Below are positions 5,974-61,522 of a stretch of DNA of 64,000 bases, piece after piece (position 1 is the first letter of the stretch; each line of letters begins with the position of its first letter). The translations under genes were made by a program, and so were the position numbers. This stretch comes from an uncultured Opitutaceae bacterium (lineage in GTDB: Bacteria; Verrucomicrobiota; Verrucomicrobiia; Opitutales; Opitutaceae), in the NCBI GenBank assembly GCA_951813085.1, contig OX638348.1, positions 3,419,627 to 3,483,626 on the forward strand, written 5' to 3'. The notes beneath the pieces are model-generated. The model searched no databases, had not been told where the DNA came from, and saw nothing but the letters and a program-made list of their open reading frames with translations.

Positions 5974-6974
5974 TTGCCATTCGAGGATACTAATGAATCT
6001 GGAAAACCCGCCCCAAGATCGAAAACCGCCTCCCATCGCGGCTTGCTTAAAGCAGGCGGGAACGAAGTGGAAATCTTCGGGTTTCAGATTGCAGGGCAGA
6101 GCTATGGTGTAAATGTCGAGAAGGTCAATCAGCTCATTCAGAGGAATCAGCTCAAGATCACGCGAGCGGACTTACCTTCCAAAGGAGTAATCGGTTCCCT
6201 CACCTACCGTGGCAAGCCCATCGCCACAATCGATCTCAGGCGTATTCTGAAGATCGACGGCGCTCCGGTTGATCCAGACCGCGAATTGATGCTCGTGACC
6301 CAGTTCAATGGCCAATCGATCGCTTTCGCCGTCGATGGCGCAGAACGGATCCATCGCGTCTCCTGGGAACAATTCGAACCTGTCGCTACCTATGCGGGCA
6401 ACGCCAATTCATTCATAAACGGCATCGTAAAGATCGAGGAGAAGCTCGTGCTTATGCTCGATCTGGAATTCATTTTGACCGAGATCAACCCCCAATTCGC
6501 GACGAGCGTGGATCCCGAGCAAATCAAGCGAATAGAGCAGGCCTACAAACCATTCTCGGAACTGAAAATACTTATCGCCGAGGATTCAGCCATGATTCGA
6601 CGGCTGCTCTCAGAACAGCTACAGAAGGCAGGCATCACCCGGCTGACCACGGCCAATGATGGACGGTCCGCCTTGGACCTGGTATCACAGGCGCTTTCCA
6701 GCTCGATGGAGACGGGACAGCCATTCACGGACTACTACGATCTTGTTCTCACCGATATTGAGATGCCGATCATGGATGGGCTGACCTTTTGCAAGCAGAT
6801 CAAATCCGAATTGAAAATTGACGTTCCGGTCATCGTCTTCTCATCAATGATCAGATGATCGAAAGATGCAAAGCGGTCGGGGCGGACGATTGGGGAGCCA
6901 AGCCACGGATCGAGATCGTCGTCGACATGATCGAGCCATTGGTATCGAAGCGAGTTCTCGTTCACCAGAGCTAG
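5974..6974 (+). pseudogene. CheV-type chemotaxis protein (CheW domain + receiver), frameshifted near the end
   Basis: CheW-like coupling domain (about residues 30-165, with EIFGFQIAGQSYGVNVEKVNQL) fused to a response-regulator receiver (about 190-end, with LIAEDSAM and DLVLTDIEMPIMDG holding the phosphorylated Asp). In its family such proteins link receptors to CheA and tune signalling. The frame stops at 6858 after VIVFSSMIR, yet the expected rest (NDQMIERCKAVGADDWGAKP and on to VHQS) continues in another frame to a TAG at 6972, so there is an indel near 6846. The start is also doubtful: the long frame opens with TTG at 5974, while an ATG at 5993 opens a different frame whose first codons look natural. 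No other chemotaxis gene is in the window. Confidence 0.8.
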
Positions 6975-7139
6975 CGGTTCTTCGACCGCTGACGGACCAG
7001 CATTATTGCTCTGGCCCTAGAGACCACGCGCTCTAGCCATGCACTATCCATCCTCTTCTAGAAAATTGATCTTGAAGCGACGCAAGAGGCGCTTAACGGA
7101 TCTAAGGTTTCGATTTTAGAAACAGAATATACTAGAAGC

Positions 7140-8990: not shown

Positions 8991-9028
8991 AGCGTAAGCT
9001 TCCAGCTAAAGCCCACTAGCTATCGACG

Positions 9029-9544: not shown

Positions 9545-9596
9545 ATCGAAATCATTGACGCGACGAGTTTAGGAGCAAGCGATTTGATTCTATTCC

Positions 9597-12146: not shown

Positions 12147-12988
12147 ATGAATTAAGAAGATATCGCCTCCTCTGGGCAAGAATGGGTCGATGGGCTGATC
12201 AATTGGTTGTCCACTGACGGAAAAGACTACGGACTAAAAATACTGCTCGCGCTTGCGATTTTCGTAATCGGGAAGTGGATAGCAGGCGCCATCCGTAACA
12301 AGCTGAAAAACACGATGACGAAGCGCGATGTCGATCCTGCTCTCATATCGTTCGGAACGAGCATCATCTACTACCTCGGTTGTATTAGCTGCAGTCCAGC
12401 AGGTCGGCTTCCAGACGACATCGCTCGTAGCAGTGCTGGGCGCCGCAGGATTGGCGGTAGGTTTGGCGCTGCAAGGTTCTCTTTCCAACTTCGCTTCCGG
12501 CGTGCTCATCATCATGTTTCGCCCCTTCAAGATAGGCGATTTCATTGACGCTGGCGGTCAAGCGGGCGTGGTCCAAGAGATCGGCGTTCTGGTGACTATC
12601 ATGAAGACTCCGGACAACAAGAAGATCATTCAGCCAAACTCCGCTATAATGGCAGGAAGCATCATCAACGTTACGGCGAACGATACCCGACGGGTTGATA
12701 TGAGCGTGGGCGTTAGCTACACCGATGATCTCGACAAGGTTCAGAACATTATCCTCGGACGTGCTCAGCGCAGATGACCGCATCCTCAAGGATCCGGCCC
12801 CACAAGTCGTGGTTTCGGAGCTAGCCGACAGCAGCGTCAATTTTCATGTACGCCCATGGTGCGCCATCGGCGACTACTGGGGAGTCTTTTTCGACTTTCA
12901 GAAAGCGATCAAGCAACGTCTCGACAGCGAAGGCGTATCTATCCCATTCCCGCAACAGGATGTATACATCCATCAAGTAGCGGAATAG
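12147..12988 (+). pseudogene. small-conductance mechanosensitive channel (MscS family), broken in three places
   Basis: The pieces join to one MscS protein: an N-terminal helix (LKILLALAIFVIGKWIAG), the pore helix ([23 protein letters not shown]), the beta domain ([19 protein letters not shown]) and the C-terminal domain ending QDVYIHQVAE. Three lesions separate them. Codon 3 is TAA (12153-12155), where TTA would give a natural MNLEDIA start. About two bases are missing near 12377, consistent with CTCTCG shortened to CTCG. One extra G sits near 12757. With intact sequence this would be an osmotic safety valve in the inner membrane. Three independent lesions make sequencing error unlikely. Confidence 0.86.
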
Positions 12989-14243: not shown

Positions 14244-14321
14244 GGTGGCTATAGCTCAGTTGGTTAGAGCACCGGTTTGTGGTACCGGGGGTCGCGGGTT
14301 CGAATCCCGTTAGCCACCCCA
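14244..14321 (+). tRNA. tRNA-His (anticodon GTG)
   Basis: A full cloverleaf can be folded. Acceptor arm GTGGCTA (14245-14251) pairs with TAGCCAC (14311-14317), and the extra G at 14244 (G-1, the histidine identity element) faces the discriminator C at 14318. The D arm holds AGCTCAGTTGGTTAGAGC. The anticodon stem CCGGT/ACCGG encloses the loop TTGTGGT, giving anticodon GTG. The T arm contains GGTTCGAATCC. CCA is encoded (14319-14321). The 3' end is the insertion target of the island that follows, and the gene has been rebuilt intact by it. Confidence 0.97.
14304..14321 (+). repeat. att repeat 1 (left), within tRNA-His
   Basis: The 18 bases ATCCCGTTAGCCACCCCA cover the T-arm edge, acceptor 3' strand and CCA of tRNA-His. 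The identical 18-mer recurs at 21626 and a 15-base version at 24052. This is the typical integration core of tyrosine-recombinase elements that restore the tRNA on insertion. Confidence 0.85.
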
Positions 14322-14853
14322 TTATATCTATAAGTTTATTATTTTCAACAACTTATAGATCTATTAGTTAAAGCCTGTTAACTACACTGAGAACAATTGG
14401 TAGCTCACGACTTGATAACTTGACTACCACAAATTCCTTAGCCGCATGATGCATCTTACCGGCAAAGTGGATACCTCTAGACGGGCTAGGAAGGAAATGT
14501 GGGAATTGCAATAGCGCTAAAGGGAGGTATCGGGATGGCGAGCGGATCAAGCTATGCCAATAGCCCCGCCTGCTTGGCTCGATAGACCAAGAATTCTGAT
14601 CAGTGAATCGGAGACTACCATAGCAAGCAGTCAGGGCACCGCAAGCAAGGCCCCACTAGCTAACACTGCTACGGTGCAATACCGCTCCAAGCTTTCAAAT
14701 CTGCTGCTTCAAAGATGCAGGAAAGGCTTCGGTGGCGATTGGTGACGCTATAAGTCTTCCTGCTTTTGCTGGAATTGTAGCGAGATTTATTCAGCGTTGA
14801 GTCTTCTTCACCCTTGAACCAAACTTGGACTCAGACTAGCACTACGAGGTAGT
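14322..14853. other. 532 bases without a convincing gene at the island's left end
   Basis: No frame here has recognisable protein features. An 11-base inverted repeat, ATCTATAAGTT at 14326-14336 and AACTTATAGAT at 14350-14360, lies directly after the tRNA. It could be a terminator-like hairpin or integrase arm-binding sites. A short stretch around 14445-14515 could be a coding remnant but matches nothing I know. The rest probably is island filler and the leader of the KAP-type gene. Confidence 0.5.
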
Positions 14854-15710
14854 ATGGAAAAGGTTGAACAAGGTTTGCTGCGTCTACTCAAAGACAAGGA
14901 CCCAAAGGTTATAGCTATCAAGGGACCGTGGGGGATTGGAAAGACTTACTTCTGGAATAAGTTCGTTGAATCAAAGCGTAGAGAGCTTGCCAGTCCAAAT
15001 ACCTTAGAGGCTTATTCGTATGTGTCCCTATTTGGCCTCAGGGACGCTTTAGATGTCAAACGAGCTGTATTCGCAAAACATCAACGGCTAGAGGGCGATT
15101 GGACCGATGAAAAGACATTCAAGAGGATCGCGCCGTTTCTTAAGAAGAAAGGTGCATGGTTTGGGAATTTTGTTGGGAGTTCGAATGCTCCATACCTTGG
15201 TTCAATTGGCATGTTTAGTGAGCTAATAGAGGAGTCCTGCATCAAGAAATTTTTGATTTGTTTCGATGGCTTGGACAGAAAAGAAGATACGCTTAAAATG
15301 AAGTCCTTTCTCGGACTGGTTAGCTCACTGAAGCTTGAGAAAAACTGCAGAGTAGTAGTCATACTCAATGACGATGTTGTAGAGGGGGAAATGCTGACAG
15401 CTCTGTGTACAAAGAACACAGGGAAAAGGTCTTCGACGCGGAGATTTCGTATAAGCCTACGGTGGACGAGAATCTAAGAAAGGTCTTTGATGACACATAT
15501 TCCCCTGACATGCTCAAGCCTTTCGAAAGCTTAGGCCTGAACAACGTCAGAACGATGATCAGGGCAAGAGAAGCCGTAGACCAGGTTACGGAATTCTCAG
15601 AATACACGGAGATATACGACGAGCTTCGGTCAATGATGATTAAAGGAGCCATAGTGGCCAACTCTTATGCGGACTTGATAAACGTAAAAGAACTGACGAT
15701 GCCTAGGCTC
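14854..15710 (+). pseudogene. KAP-family P-loop NTPase, frameshifted and truncated by an IS
   Basis: The first 180 residues or so show a Walker A motif (GPWGIGKT, about 24-31), a YSYVSLFGL stretch typical of this KAP subgroup, and a Walker B region (FLICFDGLDRKED). After VVVILNDDV the frame slips near 15390, probably one A lost in a GGGGGAAA run; the continuation (SSVYKEHREKVFDAEISYKP) is in the next frame. It runs to 15710, where the IS256 element begins, so the C-terminal half is missing. KAP NTPases are membrane-linked and several act in phage defence; a defence role here is only inferred from the island setting. Confidence 0.75.
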
Positions 15711-17042
15711 GGCGGTGTAAGGATATTTGCGTAAACTTTTTTTACAGATGCTTGGTTATTTGTTGTTTTCTGTGATTCTGTCTCCGAACTCAATGGTAAA
15801 GCGGTTCAGGGCCGCGGTCCCGTTCCTCGCGGGATTGGTCCATTTCCTGGAGATGTTGCGAATCGCCAGGTAGAAGAGCCTGTAGAGCGAGTCCGTGGTC
15901 GGGAAAAGATTACGGTTGCGGCTGATCTTCCTGGACGAGCTGTTGAGGGACTCGCCGGCGCTGGCGGCGCATATGGACCTTGCCGATGTCCTCGGGGCAG
16001 TCGAGGAACGGGGTCGCGCTCTCCCAATGCGCCTCCCAGCTTCTGCCGATCGCGGGGAAGCGCTCGCCGCGCTTGGACCGGAACTGGTCCAGGGCCAGCT
16101 TGGCGGCCTCGGCTGCCGGGGCCTTGCAGAGGCTCCTCAGCTCCGAGGCAGCCTGCCTCTTCTCCTTCCAGCTGACGCGCTTGAGGCTGTTGCGGAGCAT
16201 GCGCGCGATGCGCAGCTGCGCTTTGGCCTTCGGGTAGACCGTCTCGATGGCCTCGGACAGGCCGGACAGGCCGTCCACGCAGCATACCAGGATGCCGGAT
16301 ACGCCCCGGCCCTTCAGCTCGGTGAGGACGTTCAGCCAGAACTTGGAGCCCTCGCTCCGGGAGGACCGCATCCCCAGCGCCTCCCTGCGACCCTCCATCG
16401 CTATCGCCAGGGCCAGGCAGACCGCCCGGTTGGAGACCTCGCCCTCGCTCCGCGCCTTGGCCACGGTCGCGTCGAAGTGGACGATCGGGTACGCCCGCTC
16501 CAGCGGCCGCGCCTGCCGCTGCTCGACCTCCTCGGCCGCCGCCTCGGCGGCGCTGGGGATGAGCATGGGCGAGACCTCCACCTTGTGCATCCCAAGCAGG
16601 CGCTCCTGGACGTCCCGGACCGCCAGGCCCCGAGAGCGCCGGCTCACGACCGCCTCGCCGAAGCCGTCGAAGCGGCGCTGCCTCTTCGGAGCGAGCGCCG
16701 GCTCGAGCTCGCCCTTGCGGTCCCGGGGAACCTCGATCGCAAGCTTCCCGTCGTCGCTGCGAAGCGTCTTGCCGCTGCGCCCGCTGCGGACGTTCCCGCC
16801 ATTGGCCCAGGCATGCTTCCCCGCCCCAGGTGAGCGGTCAGCTCCGCGTCCAGAACCCGGTTCATCAGCCGCTTCTTCAGCTCTGCTAAAAGCCCTTCGG
16901 GACCTACCAGGCCCTCCGGGCCGCTATAGCCGTCGAGAGGCTGGTCGATCAGCTCCTCCTTGATCTCGTCTTCCATTCGATGCTCTCTCTAGCGCTTAAG
17001 AACATCAGTTCGAATCATTTACACAAAAAATTTTACAGGCTC
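15711..17042 (-). mobile_element. IS256-family element, copy 1 (degenerate transposase)
   Basis: About 1.33 kb, visibly GC-rich inside an AT-rich island. On the minus strand the transposase (Mutator type) is readable in pieces: NRVLDAELTAHLGRG near 16890, LAVRDVQERLLGMHKVEVSP, YPIVHFDATVAKARSEGEV, KFWLNVLTELKGRGVSGIL, CCVDGLSG and LKRVSWKEKRQAASELRS. It is split by several frameshifts, so no active enzyme is made. A 9-base tandem duplication (GLSGLSEA instead of GLSEA) is unique to this copy. The two ends share a TGTAA...TTTGTGTAAAT inverted-repeat core. The boundaries come from comparison with copy 2 at 60323; no target duplication is visible. Confidence 0.85.
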
Positions 17043-17235
17043 AATAAATCCCACATTTCCCACATTTTCGTTATACTCACCTATCAATTCTACCAAACTT
17101 CTTGAAACGAAAAAGATGCGTTCAACACTTTTATTCGATTGTACAAGAAAGCTGATCTAAGTCCTACCAACCAAACATACAGTTTCGAACACCCTCCAAA
17201 CAACGGGTGATGAATCCATAAATTAAGAACTCTTC

Positions 17236-20200
17236 ATGGCTGCGCCAATCTCAGTAATTAAGTTGATTGAAACCTTTGGTAATAACTTAGATTTCTACAA
17301 ATCCGATCGATACAATGAGGCTCAACTCCGCCAAGAGTTTCTCGACCCCTTCTTCCGAGAGCTAGGTTGGGACATGGACAATACAGCAGGTCTGGCGCCT
17401 CAATACAGAGATGTAGTTCACGAGGCCTCAATCAAATTAGGCGGCTCTACAAAAGCACCAGATTATGCCTTTTCGATTCACGGCCAGTACAAGTTCTTTT
17501 TGGAGGCCAAGAAACCTGCGGTCAATGTTCGGAGCGACACTGACCCGGCCTACCAACTACGTCGGTACGGATGGTCTGCAAAGTTACCTATCTCAATTTT
17601 GACTGATTTTGAGGAGTTTGCAGTCTATGACTGTCGGAAGCGTCCAAAGAAAGGTGAGCTCGCCTCAAATTCTCGTCTCAATTTTTTCAAATATACGGAC
17701 TACATCGATAAGTGGGAAGAACTGAAATCCACATTTTCTAAGGAAGCGATTCTCAAGGGCTCTTTCGATAGATATGCTGTCGATACCAGGCGACACAGGG
17801 GAACCGAAACAGTCGACGAAGCATTTTTAGATGAGATAGAAAAATGGCGCAATTTGCTCGCTCGAAATTTCGCACTACGCAATCCCACTCTTACTGTTCG
17901 CGATCTTAACTTTGCAGTACAAAAGACTATCGACCGCTTGATCTTTTTGCGAATTTGCGAAGATCGAGGAACTGAGGACTACAAACGCCTGGCGGCTTTG
18001 CTTAGTGAAAAGGGGATCTACAATCGCTTACTTGAGCTATTCAAGCAGGCAGACGCCAGATACAACTCTGGATTATTTCACTTTTTCGACGAGACAGGTC
18101 GTGCAGCACCCGATGGAATCACACCCACACTCAAGCTCGATGATAAGGTCATTAAAGAGATTGTCGCCAAGCTCTACTATCCAGATTCGCCTTACGAATT
18201 TTCGGTACTCCCAACAGATATCCTTGGTCAGGTCTACGAGCAGTTTCTTGGAAAGACGATCTACCTTAACGCCTCCCATCAGGCCAAAATTGAAGAGAAA
18301 TCCGAAATTCGCAAAGCGGGAGGTGTCTACTACACTCCCAGTTATATTGTCGAATACATCGTTCAGAGCACACTTGGGTATTTGCTAAACGGTGACAATT
18401 TAGAGAAACCGAGACCAATCCCAGTTTCTCAAGCTGCCGAAATAAAGGTATTGGATCCAGCCTGTGGCTCTGGTTCTTTCCTCATCGTAGCTTACCAATT
18501 TCTACTGGACTGGCACTTGCACCAATACACCGCTGATCCCAATTGCAATGAGCCGAATGCTGGAAAGATTAAACGGCATTCCAGCGGAAAAAATCCAAAA
18601 ATTTATCAATCACCCGGAGGAGAGTGGAAACTTACAACAGACGAAAGAAAACGTATACTACTCAACAATATACATGGCGTCGATATTGACGCTCAAGCTG
18701 TCGAAGTCACTAAACTTTCCCTTTTGCTTAAGGTAATTGAGGGCGAAACTCAACAAGTACTGCAACGAGATTGGATTCAAGAGCGACAGCGCATTCTCCC
18801 TGACCTTGAGAACAACATTAAATGCGGAAATTCACTGATTAGTCCTAATTTTTACGACAACGAGCAGATGTTGCTGCTCGATGAAGAGATCCAATATCGA
18901 ATTAATGTCTTCGACTGGGAGACAGATTTTCCGAAAATCACGAATCGCGGAGGATTCGACTGCATAATTGGGAATCCACCGTATGTTAGGCAAGAGGCCA
19001 TAAAAGAAAGCAAAGAGTACCTTTCAAAACATTACAAATCTGCATCGGGTACTGCCGACCTATATGTCTATTTTCTTGAAAAAGCCCTCCGGCTCTTGCG
19101 GAAAGACGGTTACGCGTCCTACGTCGTCTCCAGCAGTTTCCTCAAAACAAATTTTGCGAGGTCTTTGCGCCGCACCCTCAAAGAGCATGCAAGCATTCAA
19201 CAACTGACCGATTTTGGGGGCCTGCCAGTATTCACAAATGCTAAAGATACGTACGTTTGTATCCCAGTTTTCCAGAACACCAAACAATCGGATTCTATAA
19301 CGATCCGTAAAGTCAATACACTCGAGCCATCCGAGCGCAACGTTCAGATGAATGCAATTGGCTATACGATTCCACACAAGCGTTTTTCAGATGACGAATG
19401 GACACTTCGTAGCGATTCTGAGGATACACTTTTCAACCGATTAGTGACCAAAAACCCATCATTAAAGGAACACGAATTGAGTTTGTTCTACGGTATAAAA
19501 ACAGGCTTCAATACCGCCTTTCTCCTCTCATCCGAAAAAGCACTCAAATTACAGATTTCAGCAGACAAGCACAGTAAAACATTCCTGCATTCGACTTATG
19601 GAGGTCAAGATATCAGACGCTATCACTTGCGCCCTCGAGACAACTACCTTCTAGTGATCCCTTCGGGATGGACTAAAAAAGTCTACACTTCCACAAACGA
19701 AGCAAAGGCCTGGAAGATGTTTTCTTCCGACAATCCGAATTTGGCGGAACACCTAGGTAATTACAAAGGAAAGTTGAGCGCGCGTTCCGACAAAGGAGAT
19801 TTCTGGTGGGAGTTAAGGCCCTGCGACTATTACGACATACTTGATTCTGAGAAAATAATTTTTCCCGATATTTGCAAGCATCCGCGTTTCTATTTGGATA
19901 CCGAAGGCTCCTACATTTTAAATACCGCCTATGCTATTAATTCTTCGGATCGATATCTACTTGGAATCTTAAACAGCAAACTTTTTTGGTGGCTTATCGC
20001 ACAAATTAGTATCCCGTTCGGTGTGCGAGCGGGAGAATTTCGATATCGATTAATCTATCAATATATGGCGAAGGTTCCAATTCACAAAGTCGATATTGAA
20101 ATTCCTGAAGAAGTAACGAAACACGCTAAAATAGTCGAACTAGTGGAAATAACACTAAGTTTAAACCGAAAAATATTAACCGAAAAAAATCCGGACACCC

Positions 20201-20313
20201 TTCGATTACTGAAAACTCAACTAGGAACCACGAGTCGTCAAATCGATCGTTGCGTTTACGAGCTGTACGATCTAACAGCGACTGAAATAGAGTTAATAGA
20301 AAATCGAAGTTAA
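17236..20313 (+). CDS. type IIG restriction-modification enzyme (Eco57I-like, endonuclease fused to N6-adenine methylase)
   Basis: A single 1025-residue protein that should both cut and methylate DNA. The N-terminal PD-(D/E)xK nuclease shows PDYAF (Asp76) and LEAKKP (Glu90, Lys92). The methylase core has the SAM-binding motif I DPACGSGSF (from residue 407) and the catalytic motif IV NPPYV (from residue 580) typical of N6-adenine enzymes, preceded by GVYYTPSYIVEYIV. The C-terminal 350 residues form a TaqI/Eco57I-type target-recognition region. Codon use is AT-rich compared with the core genome, which supports acquisition. It is the only large island gene with no visible damage. Recognition sequence cannot be predicted. 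Confidence 0.92.
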   Translation: MAAPISVIKLIETFGNNLDFYKSDRYNEAQLRQEFLDPFFRELGWDMDNTAGLAPQYRDVVHEASIKLGGSTKAPDYAFSIHGQYKFFLEAKKPAVNVRSDTDPAYQLRRYGWSAKLPISILTDFEEFAVYDCRKRPKKGELASNSRLNFFKYTDYIDKWEELKSTFSKEAILKGSFDRYAVDTRRHRGTETVDEAFLDEIEKWRNLLARNFALRNPTLTVRDLNFAVQKTIDRLIFLRICEDRGTEDYKRLAALLSEKGIYNRLLELFKQADARYNSGLFHFFDETGRAAPDGITPTLKLDDKVIKEIVAKLYYPDSPYEFSVLPTDILGQVYEQFLGKTIYLNASHQAKIEEKSEIRKAGGVYYTPSYIVEYIVQSTLGYLLNGDNLEKPRPIPVSQAAEIKVLDPACGSGSFLIVAYQFLLDWHLHQYTADPNCNEPNAGKIKRHSSGKNPKIYQSPGGEWKLTTDERKRILLNNIHGVDIDAQAVEVTKLSLLLKVIEGETQQVLQRDWIQERQRILPDLENNIKCGNSLISPNFYDNEQMLLLDEEIQYRINVFDWETDFPKITNRGGFDCIIGNPPYVRQEAIKESKEYLSKHYKSASGTADLYVYFLEKALRLLRKDGYASYVVSSSFLKTNFARSLRRTLKEHASIQQLTDFGGLPVFTNAKDTYVCIPVFQNTKQSDSITIRKVNTLEPSERNVQMNAIGYTIPHKRFSDDEWTLRSDSEDTLFNRLVTKNPSLKEHELSLFYGIKTGFNTAFLLSSEKALKLQISADKHSKTFLHSTYGGQDIRRYHLRPRDNYLLVIPSGWTKKVYTSTNEAKAWKMFSSDNPNLAEHLGNYKGKLSARSDKGDFWWELRPCDYYDILDSEKIIFPDICKHPRFYLDTEGSYILNTAYAINSSDRYLLGILNSKLFWWLIAQISIPFGVRAGEFRYRLIYQYMAKVPIHKVDIEIPEEVTKHAKIVELVEITLSLNRKILTEKNPDTLRLLKTQLGTTSRQIDRCVYELYDLTATEIELIENRS

Positions 20314-20395
20314 TAAACAGAGGCTTCCGTTCTCTTAATTTGCCCTAAATAGGCAACCTAGAGTTTTCGGTTGAAACCTGAAAACTAGATAAGTT

Positions 20396-21540
20396 TCAAT
20401 CTAAAACTAGCCGATTCAATGATCTAGCAACTTGCGCAATCTCAGTATGCGTATATTGCTGAGACACTCGTTTGTCAGCGTGCCCGATTATTCGCATGCG
20501 GTCTGTTTCCGACAATCCAATCTCATTGAGCCAGGTAGAAAGACTATGTCTTAGACTGTGAAACGAATACGTTGAAACAGTTCTTCCTGCACCATTGCTT
20601 CCGCCATATTTTTGAACGATCCCTATACGGGGCAAAATTTCATTTCTAAATAAGTCAGAGATGCTCTCTCGACCCGTAGCGGGCCGCTTCTTCATTATTG
20701 GCATAACAGGGGCCTCCTTCGACGTCTCTGGACCCTGCGATAGCTTCATGAGATAGTCCGCAAGCATCGGATGCCATCGGCACTGTAAAACAGTCACTGT
20801 TTTTTTGACGCTCAAACTCAATTACACCTTTGTCAAAATCGACTTGAAGCCATCTGAGCGTGGAACAGTCCTTCTGCCGTTGCCCAGTAAGACCGGCTAT
20901 CATGATTAGAGTTTTCCACTCCCCCTTCGTTTTCTCCAACAACTCCTTGAATTGACTCAGCGTAAACGCTTTCTTCTTTGCTGCCTTTATTTTTTTGATA
21001 CGTGAAACAGCCTTGAACGGATTCACTTCAACTAACTGCTGTTTTTTCAGCATCCTCAAAAATACTCTTCATGATCGAAAGCAGCCCATTGATAGTCGCA
21101 TCTGCGAGTCCCTTGTCGATAAGCCACTGCTTAAAACCGACGCAAGTCCGCGGAGTCAGAAACATCAAGACCTCCAAACGACGATCGCCAAGATACTGCT
21201 TAAAGTCTCGAATCAAACTCTCATACTTCGCTTTGGTCGCCCTTTTAACCGTCTGCCCTCGCAACCAACTATCCAAAAACGATTCAACGTTCTCTTCTTC
21301 AAGACTCGGCATGCCAGCAGCCTGCACAATCTCATCAATGAGCTTGAATGCTCTTCGACGAGTCAGTTGCCCTTTAGACGCCAATTTTGAAGCCTGCTCT
21401 AACTTCAGAAGGAACAGTTTCGCCTCTGTCTCGTCGGTTGTACCCGTCGATACTCCTCTCAACTTCCCATTTGGAAGTCTGTAGTACGCATAGTAATTCT
21501 TAGAGCCTTTACGCTTCGATAGATCCCATTTTGCTACCAG
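20396..21540 (-). pseudogene. tyrosine recombinase / phage-type integrase, broken into three frames
   Basis: Reading 5' to 3' on the minus strand: an N-terminal DNA-binding part (WDLSKRKGSKNYYAYYRLPN, upstream of 21462, then TGTTDETEAKLFLLKLEQ), a core-binding domain (KYESLIRDFKQYLGD), a first catalytic Arg region (IAGLTGQRQKDCSTLRW), and the C-terminal HSLRHSLSTW, GHADKRVS and QQYTHTEIA with the nucleophilic Tyr. Frameshifts near 21050 and near 20790 split it. The 5' end lies about 90 bases from the att copy at 21626, the usual place for an element's integrase. A clear start codon is not visible; the frame opens upstream of WDLSK. It presumably inserted the island into tRNA-His and is now dead. 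Confidence 0.85.
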
Positions 21541-21625
21541 TAACTGATAACAATCATTTAATTCACCTACTTCACAAATCTCATAAGCAGTTGTTTATCA
21601 ATAATATTTAATTTCACTTGTTAAT

Positions 21626-21643
21626 ATCCCGTTAGCCACCCCA
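21626..21643 (+). repeat. att repeat 2 (junction of the two island segments)
   Basis: All 18 bases are identical to 14304-14321 in tRNA-His, including the encoded CCA. It marks the right end of the segment with the integrase and the left end of the 2.4-kb segment. Confidence 0.85.
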
Positions 21644-21660
21644 CCTGTTTTCTACAGGTG
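21642..21660 (+). terminator. hairpin right after att repeat 2, possibly the old tRNA-His terminator
   Basis: CACCTGT (21642-21648) pairs with ACAGGTG (21654-21660) across a 5-base loop TTTCT. No long T run follows. Its place directly after a tRNA 3' end suggests it once ended a tRNA-His transcript before the insertion of the first segment. Confidence 0.4.
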
Positions 21661-21876
21661 TTGCGTTGGTCTTAGTAAATTAACGCTTTACTTTGAAGTT
21701 CAACGACTTGCTAAAAGAATTGGATCAGAGTTTTGATCTCTTTTTAAGAACTTAAAGTATCAAATAATGCTTGATCGACACGTATTTTGACACGCATCAT
21801 AGCAACGCTAGTTTGTAAAAATACGTGCGAAATGCCCGTCGCTTGGCTATTTCTTGCTTATCCCCACTCACTGAAC

Positions 21877-22017
21877 ATGGAGTCGATCGATTCAATCAAG
21901 TCCGGAAAACCAATGCCCAAGCTGGAGCAAATTGAGGTGCTTTCCGAAACAGTTTCCAATGTCCTGAAACGGCTCGATGAGATAGAGAAAAAGGAATCGA
22001 ATTCCAGCAGTGAGTAA
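21877..22017 (+). CDS. small charged helical protein upstream of the SIR2-like gene (46 aa)
   Basis: Start chosen at the ATG at 21877 (MESIDSIKSGKPMPKLEQI); the frame extends upstream but without protein-like features. From about residue 15 it is predicted to be one amphipathic helix (EQIEVLSETVSNVLKRLDEI), suited to a coiled coil, followed by a serine-rich tail. The stop overlaps the start of the SIR2-like gene by eight bases, so translation is probably coupled. It could be a partner or regulator of that gene; no family is recognised. Confidence 0.5.
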   Translation: MESIDSIKSGKPMPKLEQIEVLSETVSNVLKRLDEIEKKESNSSSE

Positions 22018-22900
22018 AACGCACCCTTACACAGTCTTCATACTCGGCGCCGGAGCTAGCAAACCATATGGCTTCCCTCTAGGGAACGAGCTTAAGCAAG
22101 AAATAGCGAATTTTGCATCAACAAATCCCGGACGATTAAAATCACCAAAACACAATTTCGGCCGAGATTTTATTGATAGGTTTCTCGACATCCTCAAATA
22201 TAGCCCATTCGGAACGATCGACGAACTTCTAGCCAGAAAACCTAAGTTTCGTGATCTTGGATACATATGCATCGTCCAAACTCTCGCTCGACTAGAACTG
22301 ACCCTTTATTCCAAAGCTATAACTGGTATACGCCATTCTTCGAATACCTCAACCTAACCTCGAGTGATTCCATAGCAAAGAACGTTAAAGTGATAACATT
22401 CAACTATGATCGATCGCTCGAGCGCTTTCTTCACGGACACATTATTCATTCGATCGATGACGAGTTCGAGGATATCGCAATCGAAAACCTCAAGCAGCTC
22501 GAAATCATACACCCCCACGGATGCTTCGGCTCGTATCCAGATGTCCCCTATGGCTTCAATTTGAATGAAAGCAGCGATGTCGAATTGGTAGCAAGCCGGA
22601 TAAGAATAATTTCTGACGAGATCTCAAACTCCAAACCCTTTTTGGCCACCCGCCGCGTCATCGCGCAAGCGAAGCCATATTTGCTTCATAGGCTTTGGGT
22701 ATGACAAAAGATCACTTTCGATGCTGTTCTCCAAAATGCAGAAAAACACTGATACCGAAATTTTCGGAACTGCATTCAATCTCGAGCAGAATTACGTGAA
22801 TATGGTAAAGGAATTCTTTCTCGATCAAATTCAACTCACTGGATCAGGACAAACCGCGATCGAGTTCATGAACGGCGTCAAAGCTAGTCGCTACTTTTAG
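22010..22900 (+). pseudogene. SIR2-like NAD-binding protein, two frameshifts
   Basis: The N-terminus has the SIR2_2-type nucleotide loop TVFILGAGASKPYGFPLGNEL (about residues 7-27, Gly-Ala-Gly-Ala-Ser). Further pieces carry VKVITFNYDRSLERFL, IHPHGCFG (the His position of the active site) and ICFIGFGYDKRS. They sit in three frames with shifts near 22300 and near 22680, and the last piece ends at the TAG 22898-22900. Intact, it would be about 295 residues. SIR2-domain proteins of this kind act in phage defence by degrading NAD; that role is inferred from family and island context. The present copy cannot make a full product. Confidence 0.75.
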
Positions 22901-22944
22901 AGCTGCGTAGCCAAAACCACGCCCTCCAATTGAACGCGTATACC

Positions 22945-23118
22945 CTATTTTTCAATGCTGTCTTGGAGCTTAGCCACCAATGCCAAAGCGTACCCCTTCA
23001 CCTCGCCAATATCGTCCGATTCAAGGATATCCCTAGCTACTTCCTCGAGCGGCCCACTCAGGCACGCCCTTATAGCAGCATAAGCAGAATTCGCATCTTG
23101 TTTCGTGTTGGACTCCAT
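22945..23118 (-). CDS. small acidic protein (57 aa), unrecognised
   Basis: A 57-codon frame opposite an apparent plus-strand ORF. It begins MESNTKQDANSAYAAIRACL and continues with SGPLEEVARDILESDDIGEV, ending in KLQDSIEK. Alternating hydrophobic and charged residues suggest two or three helices, and the composition is far more protein-like than the plus-strand frame across it (rich in Arg, Pro and Ser). It is intact, unlike its neighbours. It points away from the membrane gene at 23310 and towards the SIR2-like gene end. No family known to me. Confidence 0.5.
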   Translation of the reverse strand: MESNTKQDANSAYAAIRACLSGPLEEVARDILESDDIGEVKGYALALVAKLQDSIEK

Positions 23119-23309
23119 AAGGTACGTACATGCATGCAGCCCCGATTAGAAAAAGTACGCAAGGGGAAAAGTCTACAAACACCACATTATCAACCATTTG
23201 CGCTTTTCACCAATAATTTTAGTTAAGAAATAACCTAAGGGGAGAATTAGAAAAACTACACCTACTGTATCATATAGCCCGATGCAAATAGAAAAAAGAA
23301 CCCGAGATA

Positions 23310-23814
23310 TCAATCCGACAACTTCGTCAATTTTCCGTCGTAGTCACGGCACCAACGTACACCGTAAGGATCAGTGAATGACCATTTAAATCTAGCGAAC
23401 TCAATATCAATAAATGCATCAGTATAGTTAATCGTTGTGTAATACCCATTTGTTAAAGGATACGCGAATTGATATTTAAGAGCGTGATACTCATACTCAC
23501 CTGTTCTAATGGACTTTGCCCGAACTATAAAATCGATCTCCTGCATCACTGCCTCCGAGTAATATCCGACTCTCAGGAATTCACCTTCACTCCCATTATA
23601 CATTTCCTTTATCTCACCCACCAACAGGAACGTTCGAGCCGGTCGTTCTCTCCCTCGCATTTTCCTCGCGTCTCTCCTTACCCTGTTTACAAATCACCCA
23701 GAGGGAAACGCCAAACGCACATAACGTCGCAAACGACCCAAGGGCATTGATTGCTTCATAATTCCACCCCGTGATTCGCGGGGCCAAAGACCAAAACCAG
23801 CAAGCTCCCATCAC
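23310..23814 (-). pseudogene. membrane-anchored protein, frameshifted (second island segment)
   Basis: Two minus-strand frames overlap between 23614 and 23660. The first (from 23814) has one membrane helix, GSFATLCAFGVSLWVICKQ, followed by a charged stretch (KERREENARERT). The second continues with a soluble domain (FLLVGEIKEMYNGSEGEF to DGKLTKLSD) that looks beta-rich and aromatic. Joined, they would give one single-pass protein of about 165 residues with an exposed C-terminal domain, a design common among small island-encoded proteins. A shift near 23640 breaks it. Function unknown. Confidence 0.5.
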
Positions 23815-49951: not shown

Positions 49952-50698
49952 TTATTTCAACTTCGAAAGCCCTAGGAGAAACTCCACATTTCCATCGGCT
50001 CCCTTGATTGGCGACGGTACGCAACCCGCTCTCTGCGAGCCTTCAAGATTTTCAAGAGCGAACCGCTCCACATCCGACAAGGCTCGGTTTCGAGCATCCT
50101 CATCCTTAATCACACCTCAAAACTTATCCGCTATTTCCTTTCCCACTTCGAATTGCGGTTTCACTAGGGCAACCAGGATTCCTTCGAGCTCCAAAAATGG
50201 CCAGATCGCTGGCAGGACCGATTTCAGCGAAATGAAGGACAGATCCATAACGATACGATCATAGCTATCCAATGGAAGGTCGCCTCGCTCCAAATAGCGC
50301 GCGTTCACTTTTTCTAAATTAACGATGCGAGGATCATCCCGCAGCTTTCCATGTAGCTGGACTCTACCTACATCTACGCAAGTAACGCTTTTCGCTCCCA
50401 TCTGTAGCGCATAGTCTGTAAAATCGCCAGTAGACGCGCCCACGTCGAGTACGGTCAACCCTTCGAAACTCAAATCATACTCGCTTGCAAATCCCTCAAG
50501 CTTCTCGCCACCTCGACTTACAAAGCGCTTACCCTCCTCGACGAAGATCGGCAAGTCCGCCTCCACTTTGAGGCCCGGCTTGTCCAATCTACGATCTCCC
50601 TCTCGGACTTTACCTGTCATTATTAGCGCTTTGGCTTCACTGCGACTTGAAGCGAAGCCTCGGCTCAGGACGAGCTCATCTAGCCGAATCTTAGCCAT
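49952..50698 (-). pseudogene. tlyA: TlyA-type 23S/16S rRNA ribose methyltransferase, in-frame TGA
   Basis: S4-like RNA-binding domain ([20 protein letters not shown]) followed by an FtsJ-like methylase ([49 protein letters not shown]). After KEIADKF, at 50117-50119, the same frame has TGA. It then continues without any shift for another 54 codons with the normal family ending (IKDEDARNRALSDVERFALE, GCVPSPIKGADGN, FLLGLSKLK) to TAA at 49952. A single C-to-T change of CGA would explain it. Its family makes 2'-O-methylcytidine in rRNA. Overlaps ribF by eight bases. Confidence 0.85.
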
Positions 50699-51647: not shown

Positions 51648-51658
51648 CGCCTAGTCGA

Positions 51659-52405: not shown

Positions 52406-53379
52406 CTACAATCGGTCGCTGAGAGCTTCAAGAAGACCTTTTCTCAATTCCTCCAGGCTCAGGCTGGCTGCTCATGGCGGCGGCGCAAGCATGCCCGCCT
52501 CCTCCAAACTGCGCGGCGATCTGGTCCACGCGAATGTCGCTCCGCTTCGCTCGAAGGCTTGCCTTGGTAGTGCTCTTTCTCTCTTCCAGCAATACTCTCG
52601 CTAACTGAACGTGCATAGTCAACGAAGCCCTCCGTATCCTGGTACGAGGTACCAGTATCAATGAAGTCTTTTTGCAGCAGCGATCCAATGCACACGTTTC
52701 CTTCGCAAGCATACTCAAGCGAACTCAAGAATCGCTCCAGCAGCTTCAATCGGGCCAGCGTCACATTCTCGTACAGGCTTTCCGCAGCACGCTGGGGAGA
52801 AGCTCCCATGCGCGTCAATTCGCTGCACAATTCGAAAACTCGACTGCTAGTAGCCGCAATCCAAATCGGCCCGTATCCGTTAGAATGCCCGTATAGAACG
52901 CCTGGGCCACAGAGGCAGATACCGGCCAATTTCAAATCGACCGCAATTCCCGCGAGGATTTCACAGGTTGCCGATGCATCCGAGTCGACAATATTCGTAT
53001 CCGCAAAATTCGTATTCGTTATGTGGTGATCAATATTCGCCAATCGGCGACGCTCTTCCAACGCGATCGATGTCTTTGGTCCCACACGACCTTCATCCGC
53101 GCAGTCTACATAGAAAAGAACCGCGTCATCCAATGCCTCCGGCTCCACGATGCTTATAGAAGATGCATCCTCCAGATACTCGAGCTCCGAGGGAACGATA
53201 TCCGCATTAACCGAAAAGCTTTGGATTCCAAAGGCTTTTAGCATGGCCACGGCGCCGATTTGAGAACCAACGCAATCCCCATCAGGACGGGCATGACCTA
53301 TAACGCAGACCTTCAAGTCTCGAGCGCTTTCCGCCATCGATCGAAACCGCTCGCTCAATTCTGGAAAGTAGGCGCTCAA
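52406..53379 (-). pseudogene. nrnA: NrnA-type DHH/DHHA1 phosphoesterase (nanoRNase), two frameshifts
   Basis: N-terminal DHH domain intact: VIGHARPDGDCVGSQIGAVA, VDCADEGRVG and NIDHHITNTNFAD. After GFVDYARSV the frame is lost near 52600. The DHHA1 domain continues in another frame ([20 protein letters not shown], then [11 protein letters not shown], the substrate-binding GGGH motif). A second shift near 52467 moves the end ([16 protein letters not shown]) into a third frame that stops at 52406. The family cleaves short RNAs and pAp. Start overlaps the rbfA stop by four bases. With GGGH out of frame the present copy should be inactive, unless these are sequence errors. Confidence 0.78.
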
Positions 53380-53818: not shown

Positions 53819-56086
53819 TTAAAGTTCGGGACGAATCTCGTGTATCTCGTAGATTTCGATCACGTCGCCTTCTTTGTAGTTATTCGTATTTTCGAGATGA
53901 ATACCACACTCAGTTCCGGCGCGTACTTCCTTAACGTCATCCTTAACGCGTCGGAGCGCATCGATTTTTTGCTCGGCTACCACTTCTCCATTTCGGATGA
54001 GACGGGCGTGCTGGTTAGCAAGCACACGACCTTCCACTACCAAGCAACCAGCAACAAATCCTTTCGCAATCGGGAATACGGCTCGTACTTCCGCTGCGCC
54101 GATCTTGTTCTCCTTGTACTCCGGATCGAGCATTTCCACCATATCGGCGCGCACCTGATCGATGAGCTCATATATGATCTGGTGATGCGTTATCTTGACT
54201 GCATGATGCTTCGCCAAGGCTTGCACTCCATTCTCTGTCTTAACATTGAAACCAATAATCTCGGTACCGCCAGCGCTCGCTTTCTGCACGTCGCCTTTGC
54301 TAACTGCGCCGATATCGGCGCGAATAATGTCAAGAGCGACCTTGTCGCTTTGAATCTCCATCAGGGCGTTCTTAATCGCCTCCACAGATCCATACACATC
54401 CCCCTTCAATATCACGCGAAGCGTCTTCTTCTGCGTCGCGGCGATAGCTGCAAACAGCTTCTCCTGGGATGTGGGCATTCGTTCTTCCGCATCCGCTTTT
54501 TGATCGACGCGAACACCGACTAGATTCTCTTCTGCTTCCCGCTTGGCCGCTTTCTCGTTCCTTGCCGCATGGAAGATCGCTCCGCAATCCGGCACGCCTG
54601 ACCAACCGATAATCCGAACCGGCGTAGACGGAGGCGCCATTTTCATATTCTTACCGTACTCGTTGAACAGGGCTTTAACCTTAGTGAAATGAGGACCGCA
54701 AACCAGCGCGTCACCCACCTTCAAAGTACCTCCTTGAACGATAACCGTCGCGGTAGGTCCTCTGCCTACTTCGATCTGTCCTTCGAGTACGATGCCTTCG
54801 GCTGCTTTCTTTGGATTGGCCTGCAATTCGAGAACCTCAGTTTGCAGAAGAATCATATCCAGCAATTCATCGATGCCATCGCCATTGAGGGCAGAAATCG
54901 GCACGCAAATCGTCTCGCCTCCCCAATCTTCTGATGGGATGCCGCGTTCTTGCATCTGAGTCTTAACCCGATCGATGCTCGCTCCCTGCGTATCGATCTT
55001 GTTGATCGCTACAATCGGTTGCGAACCTGCATTTTGAATGAATTTCAATGCTTCATCCGTTTGTGGCATAAACCCATCATCCGCTGCCACAATCAAAATA
55101 GCGACATCCGTAACATCGGCTCCGCGCGCTCGCATCTTGTTAAACGCAGCGTGTCCCGGTGTATCCAAGAATGTGATCTTCTTGTCCTTGTGCGCTACCT
55201 GGTAGGCTCCAATGTGCTGCGTTATTCCACCTGCTTCGCCGGCGACAACGCTCTCTTTACGAATATAGTCTAACAAGGAAGTCTTGCCATGATCAACGTG
55301 TCCTAAAATAGCGACTACAGGAGGGCGCTCTTCGAGCAACTCGGTCTCGTCGACTTCCTGGACCTCCTCCTTCTTCTTGGATTTTTGTCCATCTCCGCGA
55401 TGCCGAATCTCGAGAATCACTCCTCTTTTTTCCGCAATCTTGCTGGCGACATCCTCCTCCAGGCTTTGATTGATGGATGCGAATATGCCCATTTCCATCA
55501 ACTCAGATATGAGCTTGAAAGGCTTTACTCCCAACTCGGTAGCCAGATCTTTCACTACTATTGGCGGCTTCAGCACAATAGTACGAATTTCGTCGGATCC
55601 TTCGTCGGAATCCTTGGCGGCAGAGGAAGGAGCGACCGGAGCTCCCACTCCCAATGGGGAGGCGGGCGCTGGCGCCGGAGGAGGCGTAGCATTCGGGCTC
55701 GGTGGCGTTGCCGGGGCCGCAGCCGCAGGAGGTGGTGAAGCGGGACTAGGGGGAGCAGGTGTAGGAGCCGGCGCGGCAGGTTTCTTCGAGGCGGCCTCCT
55801 TTGCGGCCTCTTTCTCTACCTCGATATCTTCTTTCGTCCGCACGAATGCGCTTGCTGACGGCGGCGCCACCGGTTCGGACGGCGCTTCCTGAGCCGCAGA
55901 CTCATCGGGCGCGCTGGCTGCCTCTTCCGCTTTTTTGGCAAATTCTTCCTTCAAAGACTCCGCAGAAATATTATCCACCGTGCTCGAGGCGCTTTTTACT
56001 TGGAAGCCACGCTCGCGGAGAATGTCGAGAAGCTCGGCATTCTCCATGCCGATTTCTTTGGAAAGCTGATAGATTCGTACGCTCAT
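53819..56086 (-). CDS. infB: translation initiation factor IF-2
   Basis: 755 residues. N-terminal IF2_N domain ([26 protein letters not shown]), a Pro/Ala-rich flexible linker of about 80 residues, and a second short N-domain ([20 protein letters not shown]). The GTPase follows with [12 protein letters not shown] (about 260), [16 protein letters not shown] and NKID, then domains II-IV with [12 protein letters not shown] and [16 protein letters not shown]. Brings initiator tRNA to the 30S subunit. Second gene of the nusA block. Confidence 0.96.
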
Positions 56087-56157
56087 GCAGAAGTTTTACG
56101 GGACCGGGTAAATTTTAAAGTGCCTAGTTGCCTTTCTAGTTAGGTGTAACTGAGGAA

Positions 56158-57417
56158 TCAGGAGGAAATTTTCTGCTTCTCCAGAAAAGCGTTAACTTTC
56201 GCCAAGATGTCATCCGCCTGGGCAGCATCGAAACCAAGATCCTGCAAATCGGACGAATCCACGTCTAGGAATACTTCGGGACTGATGAGACCGCTCATCA
56301 CCAAGCGCTCAGCTGTCTCATCATCGATACCATCAATCTGATTGAGACCCGCGGCCGCCTGCTGCTGCTTCGCTTCAATGCTAACCTCCCTAACCTCTTC
56401 CTTCATGATGTCGATTTTCCAACCGACCAATTTCGAGGTGAGGCGCGCATTCTGACCTTTTCGACCAATTGCGATCGCCAGGTCATCTTCTGAAACTTCA
56501 ATTTTGAGCCGCTTGTTGACCTCGTCCAATTCAACATTGCGAGGGATTGCCGGCTTCAAGGCTTCAAGCGCCATTTCCTTCGGGCCTTCGACGTATCGTA
56601 TAATGTCGATCTTTTCGCCACCCAACTCCCGCACGATGCTCTTGACGCGAGCGCCCCGAGCGCCGACGCAAGCGCCGACTGGATCCACCTTCGAATCAGA
56701 CGAGGACACGGCGATCTTGGTTCGGTAACCAGGTTCGCGGGCGAAGGCTTCTATGGTGACCGTTCCATCGGCAATCTCGGTTACTTCCAGATCGAAAAGG
56801 CGGCGCACGAACTTAGGGCTCGAACGGCTAAGAATCAATTCAGGGCCTCGATTGGATGCCTCGATTTTCAATAGGAAACAACGGATTCGTTCGCCCGGAG
56901 CGTAATCCTCGCCTGGCACCTGCTCCCTGGAAGGCATTATCGCCTCCGCCTTGCCTAGATCGATGCACAAATCACCGCGTTCGCGCCGACGCACGATGCC
57001 GCTCACGATATCGCCGACCTGGTCCTTGAAGTCGTCGTAGATGCGCTCCTTTTCGAACTGGCGCAATCGCTGCATGATCGCCTGGCGCGCAGTCTGGGCG
57101 GCAATGCGCCCCAAATAGGCAGGATCCATCTCCTTTTCGTAGGTATCGCCCAACTGAATTTCGGGATTCGATAAGCGCGCCTTTTCGAGCGGTATTTCGG
57201 TTTTAGGATCGCTTACCGAATCGACAACATCGAGAAGCGACCACGCCTGCATTTTTCCGTTCTTCGGATCGATCTCGACCTTGAGTTCCTGACCGGCATT
57301 CACACCCTTGGTCGCCGCGTTCTTTATCGCCGTAACAATGGCGGTGATCATGTCTTCTCGACCGATCCCCTTCTCCTTCTCCATGTACTCTAAAACGGAT
57401 AGAATTTCGCTGCTCAT
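56158..57417 (-). CDS. nusA: transcription termination/antitermination factor NusA
   Basis: 419 residues from the start at 57417 ([17 protein letters not shown]); a start at 57465 would read through the leader hairpin and is unlikely. N-terminal RNA-polymerase-binding domain, S1 domain ([21 protein letters not shown]), two KH domains ([20 protein letters not shown] and [12 protein letters not shown]) and one short C-terminal HhH repeat region ([18 protein letters not shown]). RimP, normally just upstream, is absent; DUF2851 sits there instead. An intrinsic hairpin 16 bases before the start suggests NusA-dependent attenuation of the operon. Confidence 0.95.
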
Positions 57418-57460: not shown

Positions 57461-57486
57461 CCCAAAAAGTGAAAAATAAGGCAGCG

Positions 57487-58844: not shown

Positions 58845-59000
58845 ACAAGATGCGGGGAGGCTAAGGAGTTCGCAGCAACAACGAAAGTACAATCAGCTAA
58901 TTCGCAGTATTCTACGAAACGATTCCCACTGCTTTTTTGCCAGTTGACCTTAGCCTGGAGTCGACCAATACCAATTTCACGCGCCACGTTATCGATTCTA

Positions 59001-59246: not shown

Positions 59247-59303
59247 AGCCTTTTAGACGTCCTCGCCTGAATAACGCTCCTGTCACACCCACTTCTGAAT
59301 CTC

Positions 59304-60332
59304 ATGTACAAGAAACTATTCGGATTCGTGCTCATTACGCATATCATAGTAATCGCCTACTTCGGATTGCGGCCCGGGGCTCCCACGACGGAGAGCCCTA
59401 CCAGCGTCAACAACGGCTCCTTGAGCGAATCTTCGACACTGAGTGAAACCGGTTCCACCACAATCGAAGAAGACGACTTGCTCGAACCGATGCGGGTGAA
59501 GGTGTCGTATCCAGAAATCGGTTCGTTTTCGGAACCTGTAGAGACAGAGCTCCCCGAAAGCATCAAGGCCGACGATATCAAGTCAGGAATTCTATACGAC
59601 CTATCGAACAATCGAGTGTTGTGGGCAAAGAACAGCGCCGAGGTTGTACGCATCGCCTCGATGACCAAGATGATGACCGCGCTATTAGCCTTCGAGGACG
59701 TTGACGACAACGACACGTTATCGATGGATACAGTAATCGGTGTTACAAACGCCGCTTACCGAATCGGAGGAAGCCAAGTATGGCTGGATCCTAGAGAGAG
59801 CTTCACGCTTCAGGAACTTCTCATCTCTATCATGGTAAAAAGCGCCAACGATTCTTCGTATTTGGTTGGCGAGTACCTCGCTGATGGCAATATGGATTCA
59901 TTTATCGAACGAATGAATACGCGAGCAATCGAGCTGGGCATGAATTCAACGCAGTTCCTCAACGCCCATGGTCTGCCAGAGGGAATCGACGGCAATACCT
60001 CTACCTGCGAAGATTTGGTTCGCCTAGCCGCTGCGCTGATTCAATTCGATCAAGCGATCGAATGGGCAGTTCTTCCTACATACAGATTTAGAGCCAACGC
60101 CAAGGAGCCCACCATCCTAGCGAACCACAACCGTTTAATTGATACGACCGAAGGTGTCGATGGATTGAAAACTGGATACACGAAAGCTGCCGGTTACTGC
60201 ATCGCTGCAACATGCCTACGAGAGCGTCAACGTATTATTGCAGTGACGACAGGATTTAAAGTCCGGCAAGCAAAGAGACGCGGCTACCAAGGCGCTGATC
60301 GATTGGGGGTACAGTGCAAAGCGAGCCTGTAA
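59304..60332 (+). CDS. D-alanyl-D-alanine carboxypeptidase (S11), C-terminus altered by a frameshift and IS256
   Basis: 342 codons as read. N-terminal signal/anchor helix (about 6-22) and a Ser/Thr-rich linker, then the penicillin-binding fold. The active site is complete: SMTK (Ser119, Lys122), SAN (180-182) and KTG (289-291). It trims peptidoglycan stem peptides in the periplasm. The frame ends RRGYQGADRLGVQCKASL. One base earlier the next frame reads LIDWGYSAKRA, the natural family ending, so one base is extra near 60290. The IS256 copy begins at 60323, inside that ending. The catalytic domain should survive; only the last dozen residues are wrong. Confidence 0.85.
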   Translation: MYKKLFGFVLITHIIVIAYFGLRPGAPTTESPTSVNNGSLSESSTLSETGSTTIEEDDLLEPMRVKVSYPEIGSFSEPVETELPESIKADDIKSGILYDLSNNRVLWAKNSAEVVRIASMTKMMTALLAFEDVDDNDTLSMDTVIGVTNAAYRIGGSQVWLDPRESFTLQELLISIMVKSANDSSYLVGEYLADGNMDSFIERMNTRAIELGMNSTQFLNAHGLPEGIDGNTSTCEDLVRLAAALIQFDQAIEWAVLPTYRFRANAKEPTILANHNRLIDTTEGVDGLKTGYTKAAGYCIAATCLRERQRIIAVTTGFKVRQAKRRGYQGADRLGVQCKASL

Positions 60333-61522
60333 AATTTTTTGTGTAAATGATTCGAACTGATGTTCTTAAGCGCTAGAGAGAACATCGAATGGAAGACGAG
60401 ATCAAGGAGGAGCTGATCGACCAGCCTCTCGACGGCTATAGCGGCCCGGAGGGCCGGTAGGTCCCGAAGGGCTTTTAGCAGAGCTGAAGAAGCGGGTGAT
60501 GAACCGGGTTCTGGACGCGGAGCTGACCGCTCACCTAGGGCGGGGGAAGCATGCCTGGGCCAATGGCGGGAACGTCCGCAGCGGGCGCAGCGGCAAGACG
60601 CTTCGCAGCGACGACGGGAAGCTTGCGATCGAGGTTCCCCGGGACCGCAAGGGCGAGCTCGAGCCGGCGCTCGCTCCGAAGAGGCAGCGCCGCCGAGGCG
60701 GCGGCCGAGGAGGTCGAGCAGCGGCAGGCGCGGCCGCTGGAGCGGGCGTACCCGATCGTCCACTTCGACGCGACCGTGGCCAAGGCGCGGAGCGAGGCCG
60801 AGGTCTCCAACCGGGCGGTCTGCCTGGCCCTGGCGATAGCGATGGAGGGTCGCAGGGAGGCGCTGGGGATGCGGTCCTCCCGGAGCGAGGGCTCCAAGTT
60901 CTGGCTGAACGTCCTCACCGAGCTGAAGGGCCGGGGCGTATCCGGCATCCTGGTATGCTGCGTGGACGGCCTGTCCGAGGCCATCGAGACGGTCTACCCG
61001 AAGGCCGCGAAGCACAGCTGCGCTTCGCGCGCATGCTCCGCAACAGCCTCAAGCGCGTCAGCTGGAAGGAGAAGAGGCAGGCTGCCTCGGAGCTGAGGAG
61101 CCTCTGCAAGGCCCCGGCAGCCGAGGCCGCCAAGCTGGCCCTGGACCAGTTCCGGTCCAAGCGCGGCGAGCGCTTCCCCGCGATCGGCAGAAGCTGGGAG
61201 GCGCATTGGGAGAGCGCGACCCCGTTCCTCGACTGCCCCGAGGACATCGGCAAGGTCCATATGCGCCGCCAGCGCCGGCGAGCCCCTCAACAGCTCGTCC
61301 AGGAAGATCAGCCGCAACCGTAATCTCTTCCCGACCACGGACTCGCTCTACAGGCTCTTCTACTTGGCGATTCGCAACATCTCCAGGAAATGGACCAAGC
61401 CCGCGAGGAACGGGACCGCGGCCCTGAAACGCTTTACCATTGAGTTCGGAGACAGAATCACAGAAAACAACAAATAACCAAGCATCTGTAAAAAAAATTT
61501 ACACAAATATCCTTACACCGCC
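60323..61522 (+). mobile_element. IS256-family element, copy 2 (transposase with internal deletion)
   Basis: About 1.2 kb, GC-rich, same element as 15711-17042 but in the other orientation. It lacks 125 bases found in copy 1 (between 16547 and 16672). The ends of that gap in copy 1 are the direct repeats GCGGCGCTG; here a single copy of its complement CAGCGCCGC remains at 60685-60693, pointing to slippage or recombination. The loss shifts the frame, and one T is missing near 60454 early in the gene, so no transposase is made. It lies within the 3' end of the carboxypeptidase gene. No target duplication is visible. Confidence 0.85.

Follow-up and report, generated by a model that had tools for sequence, protein, structure and literature searches.

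The window analysed here is a stretch of 64,000 nucleotides (positions 3,419,627-3,483,626) in the genome G000 of an uncultured Opitutaceae bacterium, which is represented by a single contig of 4,852,771 bp. The completeness of this assembly, 97%, is at the level of the best congeners. The protease gene at 32878 of the window has relatives (77-85% identity) in metagenome genomes assigned to Opitutales, Opitutaceae or Verrucomicrobiia. The comparison set consists of ten other members of the genus, of which G010 is likewise one contig. Lesions in the window were analysed by searching proteins of the same neighbourhood from G010, G006, G009, G003 and G002 against the window and then by DNA alignment.

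The initial annotation listed lesions in a cheV-type gene, mscS, tlyA, nrnA and the tail of a carboxypeptidase gene. All of them are indeed present, as seen from same-genus orthologs or, for cheV, from a Pfam match and by eye. The CheV-like gene (5974..6858, plus strand) encodes a CheW domain and a receiver domain. The receiver is cut short, its match stopping at position 78 of the 111 of the Pfam model, and by eye the domain continues in another frame. It is missing from the corresponding place in G010 and has strong matches in three of the ten congeners (the best, 53%, in G002), and is therefore accessory. The gene of an mscS-family channel (12147..12988, plus strand) is frameshifted relative to the open orthologs of the genus, with an 11-bp deletion near 12378 and a 1-bp insertion near 12757 in the DNA alignment with relatives. 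Its loss may be buffered, as there are four MscS-type matches elsewhere in the genome. The tlyA gene (49955..50698, minus strand) contains a single internal in-frame TGA codon in an otherwise open frame; in the DNA alignment, relatives carry arginine codons at this position. The nrnA gene (DHH and DHHA1 domains; 52459..53379, minus strand) has at least three frameshifting indels compared to same-genus orthologs: a 1-bp insertion and an opposite 1-bp deletion, an 11-bp deletion at approximately 52600, and possibly an extra insertion at the end. Finally, the tail of a D-Ala-D-Ala carboxypeptidase-like gene (named by eye; 59304..60332, plus strand) is out of frame just before an IS256-type copy, and the ortholog alignment ends 20 residues early.

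The genes that had been described as clean, asnS, htpG, tkt, trmD, infB, nusA, prfA and others, proved intact wherever orthologs were compared. As clean controls, asnS (1291..2676, minus strand) and infB with nusA (53819..57417, minus strand) are open across the full length of their orthologs. The other core genes of the window that have orthologs are also open over the ortholog, and the leftover flags were read by eye as opposite-strand frames, differing starts and fused ORFs. A gene encoding a NusG-like protein of 167 amino acids lies at 62005-62508, just beyond the second IS256-type copy.

A genomic island is integrated in the tRNA-His gene (14245..14321, plus strand), its attachment site. 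Both the repeat of the tRNA 3' end and an integrase gene were found. The last 18 bases of the tRNA gene are repeated at 21626-21643, and the island extends from the 3' end of the tRNA to this direct repeat (14304..21643). Fifteen of the 18 bases occur again at 24052-24066, and two tandem tRNA-His islands are possible in the region 14304-24066. The gene of a KAP-type NTPase (14854..15734, plus strand) is frameshifted near 15422 according to the path of the hidden Markov model (HMM), and then an IS256-type element of the Transposase_mut family follows (15696..17042, minus strand), also with a frameshifted transposase. The next gene, encoding an Eco57I-like restriction-modification protein (17236..20313, plus strand), is an open frame of 1025 amino acids. 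The tyrosine integrase gene (20396..21462, minus strand) is in three pieces in different frames, which have Pfam matches. Following the island, a gene weakly assigned as SIR2-like (22010..22704, plus strand) is distributed over two frames; only one of the two pieces has a Pfam match, and its score is below the curated cut-off. Six broken island genes had been counted initially. Of these, four can be named (the integrase, the NTPase, the IS256-type transposase and, weakly, the SIR2-like gene). Decay is ordinary for an immobilised island, and these lesions were kept out of the counts of excess given below.

The second IS256-type copy in the window (60685..61522 by the repeat match, plus strand) is internally deleted and frameshifted, with transposase pieces starting from near 60460. 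Eleven places in G000 that are nearly identical carry such pieces, as do two others. Compared with the copy at 4,264,440, those at six of the 11 have the same 9-bp deletion and 2-bp insertion. This common defect led us to reject sequencing error as the source of the IS256 frameshifts. It also suggests the spread of a defective lineage of the element, presumably mobilised by an intact copy.

It had been proposed that non-essential genes of the window are broken and essential ones are clean. Thirteen window genes were called essential, with names assigned by eye: psd, asnS, an lptG-like gene, trmD, rplS, rpsP, prfA, prmC, nadK, ribF, infB, nusA and plsC; we take them to be essential. The genes htpG and tkt are not strictly essential. 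None of the 13 genes is broken, compared to five of the 32 others in the window (Fisher test, p=0.30), so within the window the pattern is not a contrast beyond chance. For this reason the chromosome of G000 was sampled in 40 regularly spaced 20-kb stretches, and stretches from relatives were added. In the extended set, the counts are 0/20 for genes taken to be essential and 23/138 for others (p=0.047), a marginal difference. Two core families of translation genes are clean: the 11 matches to PF00009 (GTP_EFTU) and the eight to PF00133 (class-I tRNA-synthetase) are all free of stops, and the strong ones lie within long open frames.

A frame-switching HMM was run on the 40 stretches of G000 (687 kb coding) and on the relatives. 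There were 33 raw candidates in G000 and six in 409 kb coding of G010. With a looser setting, the numbers were 54 and 16, or 7.8 and 3.9 per 100 kb. Read by eye, several raw candidates in both genomes are adjacent genes, the six from G010 all being adjacent genes or doubtful. Three candidates in G000 belong to IS3-like elements, for which a frameshift is normal. We applied a span filter, retaining a candidate if one homolog from another genome covers both pieces. Of the 101 candidates in G000, 16 pass it, and in the relatives none do (0/35 in G010, 0/26 in G006, 0/20 in G009 and 0/27 in G013, although the latter belongs to another genus, where close homologs are probably fewer). By stretch, spanned events occur in 11 of the 40 of G000 and in none of the 72 from these four relatives (1,206 kb; p=4e-6). 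Nine of the 16 events could also be read as two overlapping genes; the seven for which our rule excludes this occupy five of the 40 stretches against 0/72 (p=0.005). The detector recovered 16 of 20 single-base shifts planted in G010. By this test, G000 contains more freshly broken genes than its close relatives.

The second analysis was an ortholog scan with congener ORFs of at least 140 amino acids, restricted to query ORFs called coding by the HMM. Stops within 35 and shifts within 25 amino acids of the start were excluded, as were those within 25 and 20 amino acids, respectively, of the end; under these rules the carboxypeptidase gene also stays unflagged. A real-gene filter removed two of the 23 loci flagged in G000. 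The remaining counts are 21/151 in G000, 0/99 in G010, 4/125 in G009 and 5/133 in G006, or, with the relatives pooled, 21/151 against 9/357 (p=3e-6). Of the four flags in G009, two were raised by G000 queries from a broken region and a third may reflect a differing start; in G006, several flags mark remnants with many stops. A 210-aa gene with an open frame in G010, YacP/NYN-like by eye, appears shredded in one stretch of G006 (L047, 6624-7244), so older pseudogenes exist in the relatives too. Three of the G000 flags are weak (L101:1137, L186:5903, L192:15459). The flags are clustered: four in stretch L101, three each in L185 and L186, five in L193, three in the window, and one each in L083, L104 and L192, so that 15 of the 21 fall in L101, L185, L186 and L193. 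Nine of the G000 stretches had been chosen beside synteny blocks, some of them beside L101, which is rich in lesions. When only the regular set is counted, six of 59 loci are flagged, four of them in L101. With the 20-kb stretch as the unit, the scan gives 8/23 for G000 and 8/45 for the relatives (p=0.14), and with regular G000 stretches only, 3/15 and 8/45 (p=1.0). Since the flags cluster and there is no excess by stretch, the excess rests on the HMM test, and the scan confirms individual lesions.

One possibility is that these are ordinary background pseudogenes together with a decaying island, and that the lineage is not special. The frame HMM flags only a few percent of the genes of G000, the stretch-wise scan makes it the same as its relatives, and old remnants are present in G006 as well. 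According to one report (PMC3914690), strain HS, described there beside symbionts, carries 61 pseudogenes in 3,993 chromosomal CDSs. However, breaks spanned by one homolog are found in 11/40 stretches of G000 and 0/72 of the relatives, and a mere background is rather improbable.

Some of the broken genes are grouped by function. The region at approximately 3.515-3.530 Mb is a nitrate-assimilation-like cluster, as judged by Pfam matches of the G009 orthologs. Its LysR regulator, NMT1-type binding protein, flavoprotein reductase, NIR_SIR reductase and Fe-S/DmsC-like protein are broken; its permease and molybdopterin reductase, and by eye an ATPase and a porin-like gene, are open. In the stretch containing this cluster (3.510-3.530 Mb), five of ten ortholog loci are broken, one of the open loci not being a nitrate gene. 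In the next 20 kb (3.530-3.550 Mb), none of 13 is broken after removal of one shadow frame (p=0.007, this second stretch having been picked after the result for the first was seen). It carries argG, argF and neighbours (by eye), and its first two genes, nitrate-sensing-like by eye, are open. The best match to NIR_SIR in each of the ten congeners is an open frame of 530-714 amino acids; the clustered copy in G000 is split into 421 and 249 amino acids, and another copy is open (522 aa). Other broken genes are an adjacent pair encoding MMPL and LolA-like proteins and those of a GspE-type ATPase, an M48 peptidase, a CNNM/CorC protein, a Na+/H+ antiporter-family protein and an SNF2 helicase.

The types of lesions are diverse. 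By our own reading of the alignments, there are about 13 sized 1-bp frameshifts (nine insertions and four deletions), and among the multi-base frameshifts, deletions of 11 bp (four genes), 8 bp and 5 bp, and insertions of 2 bp and 7 bp. At least six genes have internal stops in a conserved frame, namely tlyA, the CNNM, MMPL and SNF2 genes, and one gene each in stretches L079 and L087. Of the 11 1-bp indels that were measured, two touch a run of at least four identical bases. Homopolymer error as the sole cause was thus rejected on lesion sizes and contexts. A mutator phenotype through loss of mutS or mutL was also rejected, as both frames are open (876 and 624 amino acids, respectively) and contain no stops.

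Deletions of exactly 11 bp were found in mscS (window, approximately 12378), nrnA (window, approximately 52600), the M48 peptidase gene (L101, approximately 10600) and the nitrite/sulfite-type reductase gene (L193, approximately 14800). Six multi-base frameshifting deletions could be sized by alignment, and these are four of them. If an inferred cheV case is counted, four or more of this length among seven would have p=0.003 at an 11-bp share of 10%, the share being assumed and the test post hoc. It is conceivable, and very doubtful, that a sulfatase-rich Opitutales lineage is caught here at the very start of erosion, prior to shrinkage, by an unrecognised mutational process favouring exactly 11-bp deletions.

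The comparisons show that the lesions are present in the assembly, that fresh breaks exceed those in the relatives, that the core families examined are clean and that lesions concentrate in one pathway. Alternatively, errors of sequencing or assembly in this single-contig genome could account for most of the lesions, and the organism would then have intact genes. Indeed, the lesions are fresh and 1-bp indels dominate; the broken genes are otherwise conserved, the GspE-type ATPase being 95% identical to that of G009; and the concentration of lesions in some stretches is what locally poor assembly would produce. According to a study of 126,564 genomes, many putative pseudogenes are assembly errors, and inflated numbers of internal stops mark poor assemblies (PMC11017572). 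Such spurious pseudogenes, as described there, resemble those of G000 in that genes which are otherwise conserved carry frameshifts and internal stops. On the other hand, G000 differs from them in the pathway clustering, the longer deletions (5, 8 and 11 bp) and the clean core families; homopolymer cases are few, the nitrate stretch contrasts with the next 20 kb, and the completeness equals that of the best congeners. The clean families, the contrast of the nitrate and arginine stretches, and the lesion sizes with few homopolymers favour real mutation, and we infer that the lesions exist in the organism. Error is unlikely, but it keeps a real share of the probability, since the test on essential genes is marginal and the lesions cluster by stretch.

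The broken genes do not clearly evolve faster. On the window genes, the branch of G000 is no longer than that of G009 (weighted ratio 0.92). The branch ratios of the broken mscS, tlyA and carboxypeptidase genes are 0.89, 0.75 and 1.14, the median of intact genes being 0.95, and for nrnA the values are 0.176 versus 0.129, with no clear excess of change in broken genes. Any real losses would thus be recent. The lack of excess change fits very recent loss, but it also fits error.

The initial annotation had suggested a host-associated or recently bottlenecked lineage, and this proposal found no support. A host-restricted lineage in reductive evolution, similar to Candidatus Didemnitutus mandela, would be a cause of the losses compatible with the explanation preferred below. 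Fresh breaks together with the 11 near-identical IS256-type places and the IS3-like copies (by eye) point in this direction, as do the repeats, which constitute 1.1% of 1.04 Mb sampled in G000 and 0.14% of 0.5 Mb in G010, although a smaller sample finds fewer of them. The IS load is modest and is the only trait pointing to host association. The genome of 4.85 Mb is neither reduced in size (it exceeds seven of the ten congeners) nor low in coding density, approximately 86% of the sample being predicted as coding when the pieces of broken genes are counted. There are at least 94 sulfatase matches, as in each of the ten congeners; proteins encoded in the window show no acceleration; and the arginine-synthesis stretch is intact. 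Host restriction is therefore unsupported by a large, gene-dense and sulfatase-rich genome that does not evolve faster, and we regard it as quite improbable.

In the recent-symbiont genome SOPE, dispensable genes are likewise interrupted by frameshifts and premature stops, and there are IS elements including the IS256 family. However, the load in G000 is far lower; in SOPE, pseudogenes are reported at 43.4% and IS elements at more than 18% of the chromosome (PMC3914690). Candidatus Didemnitutus mandela, a tunicate symbiont of the Opitutaceae clade, is probably from the same family as G000. It is described as having a GC content of 51.9%, pseudogenes from ongoing degradation, and an assembly of 2.17 Mb (2.68 Mb with repeats) whose single-copy contigs are 64.3% coding (PMC5698493), in contrast to 4.85 Mb and approximately 86% predicted coding in the sample of G000.

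The explanation that we consider probable is recent, lineage-specific inactivation of many dispensable genes across the chromosome. Small indels and nonsense changes would arise in genes at large. Selection would remove breaks in needed genes, and those in weakly selected genes would persist. Linked functions are broken together, in particular nitrate assimilation and the adjacent MMPL/LolA-like pair. The lesions appear to be young, with few break points in sequences that otherwise resemble functional orthologs, and the trigger may have been a change of habitat or nutrient supply. Of the ongoing genome decay proposed initially, the part that holds is the HMM excess, the grouping of lesions in dispensable genes and in one pathway, and their absence from the core families that were examined; the ortholog scan is in agreement when counted by locus, but not by stretch.

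If the lesions hold in reads, G000 would provide a snapshot of early pathway loss in a lineage without shrinkage. The neighbouring nitrate and arginine blocks, the former decaying and the latter kept, would then yield a direct, testable statement on the nitrogen supply in its habitat.
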